A stretch of 5,753 nt of DNA. Origin: Chloroflexota bacterium (lineage in GTDB: Bacteria; Chloroflexota; Dehalococcoidia; UBA2979). The notes below the pieces were generated by a model. The model was not told the origin of the DNA, did no database searches, and worked only from the letters and a program-made list of their open reading frames with translations. Position 1 is the first letter of the stretch. Every line of letters starts with the position of its first letter. The stretch spans positions 1-5,753 of the forward strand of contig JAQCJS010000083.1 in the NCBI GenBank assembly GCA_027592975.1, written 5' to 3'. The position numbers were made by a program, and so were the translations under genes. Below are positions 746-5,745 of this stretch, piece after piece.

Positions 746-1321
746 CTAGTGCCCCCCGTGCGCCCGCGACGCCTCGATCGCGGGTGCTTCGCCTTCCGTC
801 ACCACGTGCGTGACGATGAGGGTGTCCACGGCGTCACGGCGGCGGATGCCCAGTTCCATCACGCGTGTCCAGGTGCCGAGCGCCGGCACCTCGTACGTCT
901 CGCCCGTGCAGAGACAGCGGATCATCAGCGCATCTTCCGCGCTGTGGGGCGTGGGCAGGTGGGGCGCGACCCAGAAGCGCGCCGGCCGATCCAGCGGGTT
1001 GCGCAGCACCGCAACCACCAGTTGCGCCTCGTCCAGCGTGACGCGCATGTTCCCGCCGGCGATCTCGGCGCCTACGTCGCTGCCGGCCTCGGGCGCCTCC
1101 CCGGCGGGGTACGACCTCATGAGCCACAGCGGCTGCCCCTGCACGGTGCGGTGCAGTCTGATCGTCGCGGGGAACGCCTGCGGCAGCACCCAGCGCACGC
1201 GCAGCTCCGCGCCGCGCTCGATCGCCGGGGCGGTACCGCACCCGGACAGCGCGAGGATCAGCGTGAGTGCGGCGAGCAGCAGCGCGGGGCGGGTGAGGCG
1301 GCGAGCGAGTGCGTGGGGCAT
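746..1321 (-). CDS. Small secreted lipoprotein with Cys-x-Cys motif (possible copper-binding, Cox11-like)
   Basis: A 191-residue lipoprotein. It has a basic N-terminus, a hydrophobic core and a textbook lipobox LSGC with the lipidated cysteine at residue 28, so the mature protein should be anchored on the outer face of the membrane. The body is rich in beta-type segments. Residues about 119-160 read like a beta-sandwich domain: an Asn-Pro turn, FWVAPH, then IRCLCTGETYEVPALGTW with Cys136 and Cys138. This resembles the CFCF copper-binding strand of the cytochrome oxidase assembly factor Cox11/CtaG followed by its Pro-Gly turn, but only loosely. The C-terminus (AHGGH) and PHLPTPH add histidines that could bind metal. 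I chose the ATG at 1321 because it gives a standard signal peptide and has GAGAGA about 9 nt upstream; longer in-frame starts to 1378 lack a Shine-Dalgarno and run into a terminator. Lipoprotein status is strong, the copper role is a guess. Confidence 0.72.
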   Translation of the reverse strand: MPHALARRLTRPALLLAALTLILALSGCGTAPAIERGAELRVRWVLPQAFPATIRLHRTVQGQPLWLMRSYPAGEAPEAGSDVGAEIAGGNMRVTLDEAQLVVAVLRNPLDRPARFWVAPHLPTPHSAEDALMIRCLCTGETYEVPALGTWTRVMELGIRRRDAVDTLIVTHVVTEGEAPAIEASRAHGGH

Positions 1322-1336
1322 GCGGTCATTCTCTCG

Positions 1337-1381
1337 CATCGGACGCGCGAACATCAGACACGCGGGCATCAGACGCACAGA
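1337..1381. repeat. Three tandem 15-bp imperfect direct repeats upstream of the lipoprotein gene
   Basis: Copies begin at 1337, 1352 and 1367, exactly 15 bp apart: CATCGGACGCGCGAA, CATCAGACACGCGGG, CATCAGACGCACAGA. CATC, GAC and most of the following Cys/Gly-type bases are shared. The array sits between the terminator of the sulfurtransferase gene and the chosen lipoprotein start, where a promoter or operator is expected. It also creates a run of ATG codons every 15 nt on the minus strand, which makes the open frame look longer than the likely gene. An operator is an inference; the periodicity is directly visible. Confidence 0.6.
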
Positions 1382-1432: not shown

Positions 1433-2431
1433 CTAGGAGCGCGACGTCTCGATCTTGTTGTTGGAGGAGCCGTACTCCTCCCAGGAGCCGTCGTACACGG
1501 CGACGCTCGGGTAGCCGATGATCTCCTTCAGCACGAACCAGGCGTGCGCGGCGCGGATGCCGGACTGGCAGTACGTGAAGATCGTCTGGTTGTCCTGCGC
1601 GACGATGCCGGCCGTGTCGTAGAGCTTCTTCAGGTCAGCGACCGGAAGGAACTCGCCCGTCTTGGTCACGGCGTCCGAGTAGGCCAGGTTCTTCGCGCCG
1701 GGGACGCGGCCGCCGGCCTTCGCCGGAGCGCGCAGGTCACGACCCGCGTACTCCTCCGCCGTGCGAGAGTCGCAGACGATCTTGGAGGGGTCACCGACCG
1801 CCTTCACCATCTGCTCCATGCTCACCACGATCGCCTCGTTCGGCTTCGCGGTGAAGGCGTACTGGGTCGCCGGGCGCGCGGGCACGTCCTTGGAGACGGG
1901 CTTCTTCGCCGCCTCCCAGGCCGTCCACGTGCCGTTCAGCACGCGAGAGTCCTTGTGCCCGTAGACATCCAGGCTCCAAGCGATGCGCGTGGACCACAGG
2001 CTGCCCTTGTCGTCGTACAGGACGACGGTGTGCTCCGGCTTGATGCCGGCCTTGCCCAGCGCGGTCGCGATCTGCGCGGCCGCGGCGAGCTCGCCGATGC
2101 CGCCCTTCTTCTGGTTGAACTCCGCGGTGGAGAGCCAGACGGCGCCGGGGATGTGACCCGCGTCGTACTTCGCCTTTGTGCGGAGGTCAGCGACCACCAC
2201 GTTGGCGTCCGAGGCCTTGCCGGCGAGCCAGTCAACGCTCACCAGACGGTCCAGGTTGGGCTTGAGCTGCTGCGCGGCCGGGGTGGCCTTAGCCGGGGCG
2301 GCGGTCGCCGCGGCCTTCGGGGCCTCGGCGGGCTTCGTCTCCGTCTGCGCTCCGCAGGCGATCGCGGCGCTTGCCAGCACCGCCGCGCCCAGCAGCCACA
2401 CGCTCTTGCGAGGCGTGAAATCGAACTTCAT
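1433..2431 (-). CDS. Exported lipoprotein sulfurtransferase, tandem rhodanese domains (thiosulfate/3-mercaptopyruvate type)
   Basis: A 332-residue enzyme expected to move sulfane sulfur from a donor such as thiosulfate or 3-mercaptopyruvate onto a thiol acceptor through a cysteine persulfide. Residues 1-25 are a signal peptide; AAIAC places a lipidated cysteine at 26, with Ala rather than Leu at -3. Residues 27-58 are an Ala/Pro/Lys linker. The N-terminal rhodanese domain (about 62-175) has AGHIPGAVWL, but Asp140 sits where the catalytic Cys would be, as is normal for the inactive half of this family. The C-terminal domain (about 200-325) has VCDSRTAEEY, GRVPGAKNL, the active loop CQSGIRAAH with Cys288, and YDGSWEEY. 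The loop is closer to the CRxGxR form of thiosulfate sulfurtransferases than to the CGSGVT form of mercaptopyruvate enzymes, but the substrate is not settled. The ATG at 2431 has AGAGGGAG just upstream. It is last in the cassette, 91 nt after the TusA-type gene. Outside location distinguishes it from cytoplasmic SseA-type enzymes. Confidence 0.93.
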   Translation of the reverse strand: MKFDFTPRKSVWLLGAAVLASAAIACGAQTETKPAEAPKAAATAAPAKATPAAQQLKPNLDRLVSVDWLAGKASDANVVVADLRTKAKYDAGHIPGAVWLSTAEFNQKKGGIGELAAAAQIATALGKAGIKPEHTVVLYDDKGSLWSTRIAWSLDVYGHKDSRVLNGTWTAWEAAKKPVSKDVPARPATQYAFTAKPNEAIVVSMEQMVKAVGDPSKIVCDSRTAEEYAGRDLRAPAKAGGRVPGAKNLAYSDAVTKTGEFLPVADLKKLYDTAGIVAQDNQTIFTYCQSGIRAAHAWFVLKEIIGYPSVAVYDGSWEEYGSSNNKIETSRS

Positions 2432-2522: not shown

Positions 2523-2771
2523 CTACTCGTCCTTGAAGAGGCGGATCATCCACTCGCCTTCGCGGACTTCGTCGATCTCGCAGCCGTAGCCGCGCTTCAT
2601 CGCCTCCGGGGGGATGGTGGAGAGTGCGGGCGGGTGGTCGGTCAGCACGTCCAGCGCGCTGATGCCGGGGTGCACCTCGTCCAGCTCCTTGTTCGTGCGG
2701 AGCATGGGGTACGGGCAGATCTCGCCACGCACGTCCAGCACGGGGACGGTGGTTTCAGTCTCAGCCATCAT
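2523..2771 (-). CDS. TusA/YeeD-family sulfur carrier protein (TsuB-like)
   Basis: An 82-residue cytoplasmic protein of the TusA/SirA fold, which carries sulfur as a persulfide on a conserved cysteine. The hallmark segment is LDVRGEICPYPMLRT, with catalytic Cys19 in Cys-Pro-Tyr-Pro, followed by the usual LDVLTDHP (40-47), an IPP turn and GEWMIRLFK at the end. A second cysteine, Cys64, follows GYG; some family members have one near there. Length is normal for the family (about 75-85). Two adjacent ATGs (2771 and 2768) follow the strong site GAGGAG; the second has the more usual 8-nt spacing. It follows the cysteine-less homologue by 26 nt and the YeeE-type transporter one gene further up. Known pairing: YeeE/TsuA imports thiosulfate and YeeD/TsuB assists it in the cytoplasm. 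A selenium-linked role, as proposed for YedE/YedF, is the main alternative. Confidence 0.93.
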   Translation of the reverse strand: MMAETETTVPVLDVRGEICPYPMLRTNKELDEVHPGISALDVLTDHPPALSTIPPEAMKRGYGCEIDEVREGEWMIRLFKDE

Positions 2772-2797: not shown

Positions 2798-3088
2798 CTA
2801 CTCGCTCTTCGCCGCGCCCGCGGTGCGGGGACGGAGCGCGATGCGCCAGCCCAGCTCCGCGTCGCGTCGAAACGACGACTTGACGCCGCGCACGGCGGCA
2901 GTGGGAACCACGTACTTCACGATCACGTCGTGCTCCGTGGTCAGGTCCAGCAGCTCGCCGCCCGCCGCGCGCCCGATCGCGTCCTCGATGTCCGAGATCG
3001 TCTGCGGGAGGGGGCGCGCACCGAGGGCGATCTCGGTCACGGCGGGCTGCTCTGCGCTGCCGGAGCCCTGAGGGGCGCTGTTGCTCAC
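2798..3088 (-). CDS. Cysteine-less TusA-fold protein between transporter and sulfur carrier
   Basis: A 96-residue protein with no cysteine. Residues about 16-87 align without gaps, at an offset of 7, with the neighbouring TusA-type protein. Shared residues are Gly23, Leu47-Asp48, Thr51, His53, Pro62, Ala64, Arg67-Gly68, Glu78, Trp81, Ile83 and Leu85. The catalytic Cys position is Pro26, and Cys-Pro-Tyr-Pro becomes Pro-Leu-Pro-Gln, so it cannot carry a persulfide in the TusA manner. It may be a regulatory, scaffold or transporter-docking partner (inference). DUF2249-type proteins are another TusA-like group without that Cys and are the other likely assignment. The GTG start at 3088 is well supported: GTGA overlaps the transporter stop by 4 nt, and CGGAGG lies 5 nt upstream, indicating translational coupling. 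The frame is open further upstream, but that part is antisense-like or out-of-frame shadow of the transporter gene. The C-terminal 10 residues are an Ala/Lys tail. Confidence 0.85.
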   Translation of the reverse strand: MSNSAPQGSGSAEQPAVTEIALGARPLPQTISDIEDAIGRAAGGELLDLTTEHDVIVKYVVPTAAVRGVKSSFRRDAELGWRIALRPRTAGAAKSE

Positions 3089-4323
3089 GCGAGCCTCCGG
3101 ATGATGCGCGTGCCGATGAGCGCGCCGCCGGCCATGGCGACGGCGTACACCCAGCCGTTGAGGGCGAGCGAGGGGATGGCGGAGTAGAACGCGCCCAGCG
3201 TGCAGCCCAGCCCCAGTCCCGCGCCGTAGCCCATGATCACGCCGCCGCCCAGCGACTGGACGTAGCGCTGCGGCTGGCGCGGCACCCGCAGTCGGAAATC
3301 CCGCGCCAGCACCGCCGCGACGAACGCGCCGACGATGATGCCGATGTTCAGCATGAAGCCGTCCGTGAACCAGGACGCGCCCTCTGTCAGCGCGGCGGCG
3401 CAGCCGGCGAGGCCCTCCAGGCCCTTCTGCACGGCGACGGGCACACCGGCGGCGCTGCCCAGGTCGTTGGCCCAGCGCGAGATCTCGCCGACGACGCCCA
3501 GCGGGCGGTACTTGATGAAGAGCAGCACGTTCAGCATGGCGAGCACGACACCGCCGGCCAGCGGCGACCACTCGCGGCGGAAGACGCCTCGCAACGCCAC
3601 GCGCACGTCGTCCGCGACGCTGGCAGGGGGCGCGGGCTGCGCTCGGCGGATGGTGACGTTCGCGACGAACGCCTGCTTGCGTTCCCACCACAGCGTCCCC
3701 ACGTACGCGGCCGCGAGGAGCGCGAGCGTGATCACGATGGCACCCGTGTAGCCGATGTTGGCGGGGAACCACACGCGCGGCGAGGTGGAGATGCTGACGT
3801 CCCACCACCAGTTCCAGGTGCGGTTCAGCGCGTACAGGCCGACCATCACGCCCGCCATGGACACCCACGAACCGACGTAGCCCTCGCCCATGCGGTACAG
3901 CGAGCCGGAGACGCAGCCGCCCGCGAGCACCATGCCCAGCCCGAAGAGCCCGCCGCCGATCACCGTGGCGATGCCGACGGGGAGGATGTGCGCGTCGTCC
4001 GGGCTTCGACCCGCGAACGGGTCAGCGACGATCGTCCCCATGACCATCGCGAAGCCGAGCGTGCCCACGCCCAGGCCGACGAGCAGCCCGCGCGCGGTGC
4101 GGCCCTGGTGCAGCATGAACAGGTCGCGGAACGCGGAGACGAAACACAGGCGCGCCCGCTGCAGCGTGAACCCGACGGCCGTGCCCACCGCGAAGAAGGT
4201 CGCGAGCGACGTGCCGGCACCCAGCGCCACGAGGTAGATGGCGATCGGCACCAGCAGCACGGCGAGGTGCACGGACTCCGGCATCGTGAATCGTCGGGCG
4301 GACGAGATCGTCTGTGCGGTCAT
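3085..4323 (-). CDS. YeeE/YedE-family membrane transporter (TsuA-type, probable thiosulfate import)
   Basis: A 412-residue integral membrane protein of the sulf_transp family, whose characterised members (TsuA/YeeE) take up thiosulfate. About ten hydrophobic segments are visible, near residues 19-37, 38-55, 79-99, 113-135, 149-166, 190-212, 254-272, 322-340, 356-380 and 388-405. The family signatures are ARLCFVSAFRD (Cys60), GMVLAGGCVSGSLYRMGEG (Cys137) and GLGLGCTLGAFYSAI (Cys374); I infer these are the conserved cysteines that relay the substrate through the pore. Cys308 (LAGCAAALTEG) is extra. Residues 215-250 form a polar cytoplasmic-looking loop. It is longer than E. coli YeeE (about 350) and nearer YedE in size. 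Start: the ATG at 4332 has its GAGA directly abutting, while the ATG at 4323 has it 9 nt upstream, so I prefer 4323; 4284 is possible. It is first in the cassette and overlaps the next gene by 4 nt. A selenium-linked substrate cannot be excluded. Confidence 0.92.
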   Translation of the reverse strand: MTAQTISSARRFTMPESVHLAVLLVPIAIYLVALGAGTSLATFFAVGTAVGFTLQRARLCFVSAFRDLFMLHQGRTARGLLVGLGVGTLGFAMVMGTIVADPFAGRSPDDAHILPVGIATVIGGGLFGLGMVLAGGCVSGSLYRMGEGYVGSWVSMAGVMVGLYALNRTWNWWWDVSISTSPRVWFPANIGYTGAIVITLALLAAAYVGTLWWERKQAFVANVTIRRAQPAPPASVADDVRVALRGVFRREWSPLAGGVVLAMLNVLLFIKYRPLGVVGEISRWANDLGSAAGVPVAVQKGLEGLAGCAAALTEGASWFTDGFMLNIGIIVGAFVAAVLARDFRLRVPRQPQRYVQSLGGGVIMGYGAGLGLGCTLGAFYSAIPSLALNGWVYAVAMAGGALIGTRIIRRLA

Positions 4324-4330
4324 GCGAGCC

Positions 4331-4360
4331 ATTCTCTACGTTCACGACTTATTTGGTCAA
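4331..4360 (-). promoter_or_regulatory. Candidate promoter of the sulfur cassette
   Basis: The interval 4341-4372 is the only AT-rich patch in the window. Read on the minus strand it contains TTGACC (4360-4355), five of six matches to a sigma-70 -35 box. Eighteen nt later comes GAGAAT (4336-4331), four of six matches to a -10 box. If both are used, transcription would begin close to the ATG at 4323. A short imperfect dyad, ACTT at 4348-4351-like and AAGT, overlaps the -35 region. The -35 match is good, the -10 is weak. Confidence 0.4.
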
Positions 4361-4375
4361 GTAATCAGGTTTCGA

Positions 4376-4402
4376 CGAGCCTCGGTGGATTCTAGAGGCT
4401 CG
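4376..4402. repeat. 8-bp inverted repeat in the divergent intergenic region
   Basis: CGAGCCTC at 4376-4383 pairs with GAGGCTCG at 4395-4402 across 11 nt containing TCTAGA at its right side. It lies between the AT-rich promoter patch of the sulfur cassette and the thiolase-like gene, a plausible operator position for either. Direct observation of the symmetry; the role is inferred. Confidence 0.5.
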
Positions 4403-4437
4403 CCCGCCGCCGCGCCAATCCTTGCCCGGGCGGGCGA
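4400..4437. repeat. 9-bp inverted repeat overlapping the previous one
   Basis: TCGCCCGCC at 4400-4408 pairs with GGCGGGCGA at 4429-4437 across 20 nt. Its left arm shares 3 nt with the right arm of the 4376-4402 repeat, so as RNA the two stems could not both form fully. The 180 nt between 4324 and 4509 holds no gene that I can support. Confidence 0.5.
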
Positions 4438-4509: not shown

Positions 4510-5745
4510 ATGGGGTTCAGCGCAGGTGGGAACGTGGCGATCGTGGGCGTGGGGCGCTCCAAGATCGGACGGAAGCAGGACCGCTCGATCGGTGCGCTCG
4601 CCGTCGAGGCGTCGCTGAAGGCGATCGAGGATGCTGGCCTCACGCTTCGTGACATTGACGGGCTGTCCACGTTCCCGGAGAGCACCGGGCCGGGCGTCGG
4701 CCCCACGCCGGGCGTGAGCGCCGCGGGCCTCCAGTGGATGGTGCAGGGCCTCGGCATCGAGCAGGTCAACTGGTGGTCGAACGGCGGTGGCAACATCTCC
4801 ACCGCCATCGGCACCGCGATCCACGCGATCAACGCCGGCTCGGCCAACACCGTCCTGGTCTGGCGCGCGATGTACCAGCCCCGCGCCGGCGCCTTCGGCA
4901 GCGGCACGCGCAACAGCGCCGCGAACGGCCCGGTGGAGGCGCCGAAGGCGACCGCCGGCAACGCGTACCAGGCGCCGTACGGCATGGGTGACGCGCCCAC
5001 GGGCTTCGCCGCCGGCTACATGCGCTACATGAAGATGTACGGCGCGCGCCGCGAGCACATGGCGGAGTACGTGATCTCCTGCCGCGCCAACGCGAACAAG
5101 AACCCGATCGCGGCCTTCTACTCGCAACCGATGTCCTTCGAGGACTACATGAACTGCCGCATGATCGCGGATCCGCTGTGCCTGTTTGATTGCGACATGC
5201 CGGTGGACGGCGCAGCGGCGATCGTCCTGACGCGCGCGGACCGGGCCACCGGGTTGAAGCAGAAGCCGGCCTACGTGAACGCGCTGGGCTCCGGCGGGTG
5301 GGACTGGCGACACCGGCCGCCCGAGGAGTGGCAGAACGACACCGCGGTGAACCTGGGCCGGACGCTGTGGGCGGGCACCGACCTGCAGCCGAAGGACATC
5401 GACGCCTGCATGCTGTACGACGGCTTCTCGCCGGACATCTACTGGTGGCTGGAAGGCCTGAACTTCTGCGGCCGCGGCGAGGCCTACCAGTGGATCCAGG
5501 ACGGCCGCATCCGGCTGGGCGGCGAGATGCCGATCAACACGTTCGGCGGCCAGATCTCCGAGGGCCGGCTTCACGGCATCGGCCACTGGTGCGAGGCGGT
5601 GCTGCAGGTGCAGGGACGCGCGGATGACCAGCCGGGCGACGGCGCACGGCAGGTGAAGGACGCGCAGCACGTGCTGGTCGCCACCGGCATGACCGGCCAC
5701 GGCGTCGGCGCGATCCTCGGCCGCGAGCCGATCCGCTCCCGCTAG
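4510..5745 (+). CDS. Thiolase-superfamily protein, SCP2-thiolase/lipid-transfer (Ltp) type
   Basis: A 411-residue cytoplasmic protein of the thiolase fold. The start VAIVGVGRSKIGRK (9-22), the segment EASLKAIEDAGL, PVDGAAAIVLTRADRA (231-246) and GGQISEGRLHGIGHWCEAV (346-364) are typical of SCP2-thiolase and Ltp proteins annotated as acetyl-CoA acetyltransferases. The canonical thiolase residues appear missing. The nucleophile region reads NGGGNISTAI (91-100) with no Cys. The position of the GHP histidine is Arg353, with His355 and His359 nearby. The C-terminal Cys-x-Gly is replaced by VATGMTGHG. Tyr303 in LYDGFSPD matches the YDxF motif of Ltp-type proteins, in which a tyrosine acts in retro-aldol cleavage of steroid side-chain CoA esters in some members. 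A condensing or cleaving step on an acyl-CoA other than classical thiolysis is therefore likely; the substrate is unknown. Ltp enzymes usually pair with a DUF35 protein, which would lie beyond the right edge. The ATG at 4510 gives the usual N-terminus. It is divergent from the sulfur cassette. Confidence 0.9.
   Translation: MGFSAGGNVAIVGVGRSKIGRKQDRSIGALAVEASLKAIEDAGLTLRDIDGLSTFPESTGPGVGPTPGVSAAGLQWMVQGLGIEQVNWWSNGGGNISTAIGTAIHAINAGSANTVLVWRAMYQPRAGAFGSGTRNSAANGPVEAPKATAGNAYQAPYGMGDAPTGFAAGYMRYMKMYGARREHMAEYVISCRANANKNPIAAFYSQPMSFEDYMNCRMIADPLCLFDCDMPVDGAAAIVLTRADRATGLKQKPAYVNALGSGGWDWRHRPPEEWQNDTAVNLGRTLWAGTDLQPKDIDACMLYDGFSPDIYWWLEGLNFCGRGEAYQWIQDGRIRLGGEMPINTFGGQISEGRLHGIGHWCEAVLQVQGRADDQPGDGARQVKDAQHVLVATGMTGHGVGAILGREPIRSR

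Follow-up and report, generated by a model that had tools for sequence, protein, structure and literature searches.

A putative accessory subunit of a sulfur importer is encoded on a 5,753-nucleotide stretch of a Chloroflexota bacterium (contig JAQCJS010000083.1, assembly GCA_027592975.1; hereafter the window). The window carries a compact four-gene cluster on the minus strand, consisting of a YeeE/YedE-family transporter gene, a small gene whose product is here called X, a gene for a canonical TusA with a CPYP motif, and a gene for a double-rhodanese protein. The X open reading frame (ORF) spans positions 2798–3088, with a GTG start codon at 3088 and a TAG stop codon at 2798, and codes for 96 residues without a single cysteine, as an earlier note made from the sequence had described; it lies on the minus strand. 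The favored interpretation, to which a little better than an even chance is assigned, is that X, a TusA paralogue no longer capable of catalysis, has been retained in a Chloroflexota lineage as an accessory part of a YeeE-type sulfur importer.

Homology of X to the TusA family is well supported by profile comparisons and the predicted fold. X itself has no match in library scans of Pfam or NCBIfam, and its pairwise similarity to the adjacent TusA, correctly noticed earlier, is modest when taken alone, because the 15 identities in 82 gapless positions (offset 7) are reached by 16 of 5000 shuffles of X. BLASTP aligns the two proteins with 12 of 39 identities (E = 0.001, a single comparison). The homology is made firm by two further lines of evidence. 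First, X profiles align with TusA at 92.3% and 97.65% probability in hhalign, whereas shuffled profiles (40 per profile, accompanied by reversed controls) reach at most 12.7%, which rules out chance similarity. Second, structure prediction, a check that the earlier note had proposed, yields the TusA fold (beta-alpha-beta-alpha-beta-beta), and the best solved match of the model by VIA-align, among Foldseek's top 1000, is YeeD of the YeeE-YeeD complex (8k1r). The X protein of a related genome (G572), also Cys-less and encoded in the same slot, passes the Pfam TusA cut-off. A search of PDB sequences with X profile A5 (hmmsearch) returned no TusA and two chance-level matches only; it is the fold and the profiles that connect X to solved TusA structures.

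The DUF2249 family (PF10006) is likewise TusA-related, with CPxP in 0 of 33 rows and any Cys in one row, and Cys-less TusA-like proteins are thus not new as such. However, hhalign places X profiles nearer to TusA (92–98%) than to DUF2249 (8–87%; 7.75% for the window clade). Single-sequence Pfam scans of 41 X-family members lean slightly the other way, with 15 matching DUF2249 weakly (best E 2.6e-4) versus 13 matching TusA (best E 0.0067). DUF2249 membership is less likely, being weaker than TusA by profile, and the window's X has no match above the 29.5-bit cut-off. In the suggested hidden Markov model check, TusA was recovered by profile-profile comparison, and neither family was matched in Pfam by the window's X alone. 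A phage origin was also considered; PHROGs gave two matches, one of them weak and to a family of 39 positions and unknown function (E 0.001), the other at 0.32, and both were judged to be chance. All NCBI labels encountered for the X family read "hypothetical protein", and the analysis provides a likely identity for it. JGI labels two members (P0029 and P0089) "TusA-related sulfurtransferase"; since both are Cys-free, this activity is unlikely.

A functional TusA sulfurtransferase carries a catalytic CPxP Cys at the start of helix alpha1, which X lacks. In profile-profile and multiple alignments, Cys19 of the partner TusA (CPYP motif, Cys19–Pro22, 2706–2717, minus strand) aligns with Leu27 of X, and Pro20 with Pro28 (Leu27-Pro28 codons at 3005–3010, minus strand). 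The previous assignment of the lost cysteine to Pro26 does not hold, and arose because one gapless offset was forced over a one-residue length difference. Among 52 rows of the close family of X, 51 retain Leu27 and 44 retain Pro28. Three pooled searches gave 88 X homologues, the window's X included; CPxP occurs in none of them, 61 are Cys-free, and 27 contain exactly one Cys, always where beta3 begins, within an RGxxC or AGMxC stretch. A Cys at this beta3 place (RGYGC) is also found in the window's partner TusA. The defining change of the X family is therefore the loss of the CPxP Cys, and a total lack of cysteine characterizes only some clades. Cys-dependent activity of the YeeD type, such as the decomposition of thiosulfate, would not be expected in the Cys-free X.

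The gene order recurs in related genomes, as the earlier note had proposed to check. With this recurrence and the TusA-like predicted fold, neither of the two results that the note had named as refuting its idea was obtained. All seven loci from named species genomes (titled Chloroflexi or Dehalococcoidia) show YeeE-X-TusA-rhodanese. The order around genome G001 comprises 44 genomes, 23 of which carry a YeeE of the window kind (E below 1e-78; two more with YeeE matches near 2e-4 were left out). X lies directly downstream of YeeE in 20 of these 23, and the full contiguous arrangement is present in 16 of the 20 X loci (16 of the 23 YeeE genomes). In the four others, X adjoins YeeE and TusA is not adjacent; the order is TusA-rhodanese-YeeE-X in G426 and G429, and TusA lies ~1.1 kb downstream in G407 and G408, in the latter behind an oppositely oriented ORF. 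The G427 locus ends ~80 nt past YeeE, and a partial X-like match is located on a different contig. In two genomes (L096 of G432 and L097 of G443), the YeeE-adjacent slot belongs to a CPLP or CPIP TusA, and a second TusA, with CPYP, comes next.

In a phylum-wide sample of 400 genomes, a YeeE match of some kind was present in 66, and a set of 30 loci was inspected. An intact close YeeE is present in 26 of them, four with X (G001, G049, G105 and G209) and 22 with a CPxP TusA downstream of YeeE within ~350 nt, in the slot that X fills elsewhere. The assignment of X in G209, a very divergent protein (19 bits), relies chiefly on position. In the remaining four loci, of which two have an in-frame TGA, one is more distant and another is partial, neither X nor a CPxP TusA was seen. 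X is also next to YeeE in G572 and in G521, where only YeeE-X is visible in a 2.5-kb locus. An X-like protein outside the set of 88 homologues is encoded in G433 (L116, 1486–1758, minus strand), in a locus without YeeE and beside a thioredoxin/AhpC-TSA-like gene; it contains two Cys, neither within CPxP. Several YeeE-TusA-rhodanese operons (L122 of G462, L123 of G458, L124 of G454, and also L054) include a more distant TusA-type gene after the rhodanese gene.

In the window, the X gene overlaps the transporter stop codon by 4 nt (GTGA, 3085–3088, minus strand), as the earlier note had pointed out, and a GGAGG Shine-Dalgarno-like site is indeed present at 3098–3094 on the minus strand, within Arg-Arg codons of the YeeE C-terminus. 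An NTGA overlap is found in 17 of 25 X loci, and GGAGG in seven (this count omits G438, whose YeeE stop is unclear). The overlap is thus more conserved than Shine-Dalgarno strength, and the stoichiometric synthesis previously read from the strong site finds no support as a conserved trait.

In a tree of 84 columns in which long branches meet, all 31 X rows fall on one side of a branch (Shimodaira-Hasegawa-like approximate likelihood ratio test, SH-aLRT, 99), and 21 single TusAs fall on one side of another (SH-aLRT 88; the TusAs of X loci L058 and L060 excluded). X may have originated by tandem duplication of the neighboring TusA, an event that the tree, with its long branches and few columns, does not decide. 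In the simplest history, an older YeeE-TusA-rhodanese operon would have gained a second TusA next to YeeE, and this copy would later have been deprived of its CPxP Cys; operons with two TusA genes, as in G432 and G443, are actual examples of such a state. X is under purifying selection yet evolves faster than its partner, with ratios of nonsynonymous to synonymous substitution (dN/dS) of ~0.22–0.34 for X versus 0.02–0.10 for TusA in four pairs, and ten columns are invariant over 52 X sequences.

Conservation is also distributed differently in the two proteins. The CPxP loop of the partner TusA shows no variation (entropy 0.0 over 22 rows), with alpha2 next (0.17), whereas in X (52 rows) the loop at this position is the least conserved element (1.45) and alpha2 the most conserved (0.48). 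Helix alpha2 of X comprises residues 54–66 in the fold model (2891–2929, minus strand) and includes K58-Y59, which occupy the positions of E48 and R49 of Spirochaeta thermophila YeeD in 52 of 52 close-family rows, although K58 is replaced by Thr in much of the X sister clade. In the solved S. thermophila YeeE-YeeD complex, E48 and R49 at the start of alpha2 and the preceding D42 and Y43 are reported to contribute to YeeE binding (PMC11073785).

The transporter (415 aa, 3085–4332, minus strand; Cys63, Cys140, Cys311 and Cys377) retains the equivalents of the cysteine path and of the YeeD contacts, namely C63, C140, R147, E150 and the acidic D345. C63 is present in 50 of 51 aligned YeeE sequences, with one gap, and Cys311, the fourth Cys, in 50 of 51. 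In the current model of YeeE import, the cargo passes from Cys to Cys and ends on that of the TusA-type partner (PMC11073785). Conservation of alpha2 in X, the retained transporter residues and the adjacency of X to YeeE even at loci whose TusA lies elsewhere together favor a division of labor in which X is a non-reactive YeeE subunit and TusA the reactive acceptor. In this reading X descends from the TusA family, having lost the persulfide-carrying CPxP Cys, and may bind YeeE on its cytoplasmic side, either by itself or together with TusA as a YeeE-X-TusA assembly. There it could help to position or exchange the active TusA, which would take the imported sulfur species onto its own Cys, while X itself would perform no sulfur chemistry, a role like that of the non-reactive paralogous subunits of DsrEFH. 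TusBCD likewise contains non-reactive paralogous subunits in a sulfur relay, and DsrEFH belongs to a different fold family than TusA.

YeeD/TsuB, the partner of YeeE/TsuA in S. thermophila and E. coli, is among the closest known systems. Like X, it has the TusA fold and is encoded adjoining a YeeE-family transporter, an adjacency that X shows in the window and in all but three of the order's 23 YeeE genomes, and the YeeE residues involved are those kept in the window transporter. Unlike YeeD, X is encoded along with a second, Cys-bearing TusA. A point against a YeeE-bound X is that the catalytic CPxP Cys of S. thermophila YeeD is described as itself needed for tight YeeE binding (PMC11073785), and X has no Cys. 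This disfavors a simple reuse of the same dock, and X may bind differently.

The best-placed alternative, though still unlikely, is that X acts primarily on the active TusA, as its heterodimer partner or as a regulator, independently of YeeE, and protects or discharges the persulfide, comparable to the non-catalytic subunits of DsrEFH. Several observations are in its favor: YeeE-X-TusA-rhodanese is contiguous in 16 of the order's 20 X loci, the TusAs of X operons form a subgroup of their own, TusA-family dimers are known from S. thermophila YeeD and M. cuprina TusA (PMC11073785), and in type II DsrEFH, TusA persulfidates DsrE and not DsrF or DsrH (PMC13293266). However, where X and TusA are non-adjacent (G407, G408, G426 and G429), it is YeeE that X adjoins, and for this reason a non-reactive transporter subunit is preferred. 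A variant that keeps X at the transporter is more speculative and somewhat less probable again. In it, the Cys-free X would be a place-holder of the fourth-cysteine position, sitting at the YeeE cytoplasmic exit when no thiosulfate or other sulfane sulfur is delivered and being swapped for the Cys-bearing TusA during uptake, such that a dead TusA would gate a group-translocation-like importer.

It is doubtful, to a slightly greater degree, that X has a separate small-molecule role. Here sulfite, thiosulfate or a similar anion would bind to a basic beta3-beta4 surface (R67, K/R70, R74, R82, R86 and R88), or X would act as a sensor of sulfur status, with the single beta3 Cys serving this purpose in sister clades. 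Conservation of the basic residues in the window clade ranges from 48 to all 52 rows, and the single Cys of 27 of the 88 homologues is always in the same place; however, that position is Ser or Ala in 51 of the 52 window-clade rows, and a median isoelectric point of 5.4 (51 close-family proteins) indicates that X is not basic overall. That X is a functionless, decaying TusA duplicate would agree with the missing catalytic Cys and with amino-acid changes accumulating several-fold faster than in TusA, but is largely refuted and highly improbable given the purifying selection, the ten invariant columns and the presence of X in 20 of 23 YeeE genomes of the order. Equally improbable is that X has no kinship with TusA and resembles it only in a common IF3-C-like beta-alpha-beta-alpha-beta-beta arrangement, an idea largely refuted by bridging sequences such as the G572 X, by the controlled hhalign comparisons, and by the location of X in TusA operons.

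The substrate of the importer is less certain than the note's designation of a thiosulfate-uptake cassette implied. The transporter passes the Pfam Sulf_transp cut-off with 211 bits but falls below the NCBIfam cut-offs for TsuA (134 of 400 and 94.8 of 645 bits) and for selenium YedE (192 of 350 and 42.6 of 200 bits). The literature links YeeE relatives to selenium as well as to thiosulfate and further forms of sulfane sulfur (PMC11582611). Given these scores and the varied substrates of relatives, thiosulfate goes beyond the evidence. YeeE sites that differ between X-containing (23 rows) and X-lacking (28 rows) loci (76, 162, 272, 281 and 374) were not used, as they are too confounded by phylogeny. 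Separately, two YeeE ORFs, L061 (G073) and L062 (G375), contain one in-frame TGA exactly at the Cys311 position. Both genomes have SelB and tRNA-Sec above cut-off, and a stem-loop is located ~16–36 nt past the TGA in L061 and, more weakly, in L062 (no shuffle control). These two are candidate selenocysteine-containing YeeE/YedE transporters.

Comparison with other systems helps to delimit what is new. X is related to TusA (PF01206) by profile and through the Cys-less G572 protein, but differs from that family in the absence of CPxP from all 88 homologues and of a Pfam match for the window's X. DsrEFH similarly combines non-reactive paralogous subunits with one reactive subunit, but no membrane-transporter partner subunit is described for it in the portion of PMC13293266 drawn on here. 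The YTD cluster of sulfur disproportionators (YeeE, TusA-like YeeD, DsrE-like, Chp1 and Chp2) is also a multi-part YeeE cluster with a TusA-type protein, but the portion of PMC13047784 drawn on here describes its extra proteins as DsrEFH-like and not of TusA fold. Cys-less TusA-related proteins (DUF2249) and the pairing of YeeE with TusA are already known. A non-exhaustive search of open-licence PMC titles and abstracts brought up no account of a TusA without Cys lying between YeeE and TusA, and within that scope the fixed placement next to YeeE of a conserved TusA paralogue lacking Cys, along with an active TusA, appears to be new. Fixation of a Cys-less TusA in the slot beside the transporter, with an active TusA retained, would separate TusA-fold docking from chemistry. 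The X lineage offers natural material for asking whether the partner of YeeE is confined to accepting sulfur or has a gating or scaffolding role as well.

The partner TusA (82 aa, 2523–2771, minus strand) passes the Pfam cut-off with 57 versus 28.6 bits. The last protein (332 aa, 1433–2431, minus strand) passes Pfam Rhodanese and has an N-terminal signal and a lipobox-like Cys, recognized by eye. Two weak sigma-70-like sites are found in the window versus 0.2 expected, both at the YeeE start (4331–4418, minus strand; 4418–4389, and 4360–4331, which runs into the start codon). Being consensus matches only, they agree with a single operon without showing it. Downstream of the rhodanese gene, a lipoprotein-like ORF (746–1378, minus strand) resembles the LIC11469 family below threshold (49 of 150 bits, E 4.5e-13) and is possibly part of the same operon. 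A thiolase/lipid-transfer-like gene (4510–5745, plus strand) lies in divergent orientation on the other side of the cluster.
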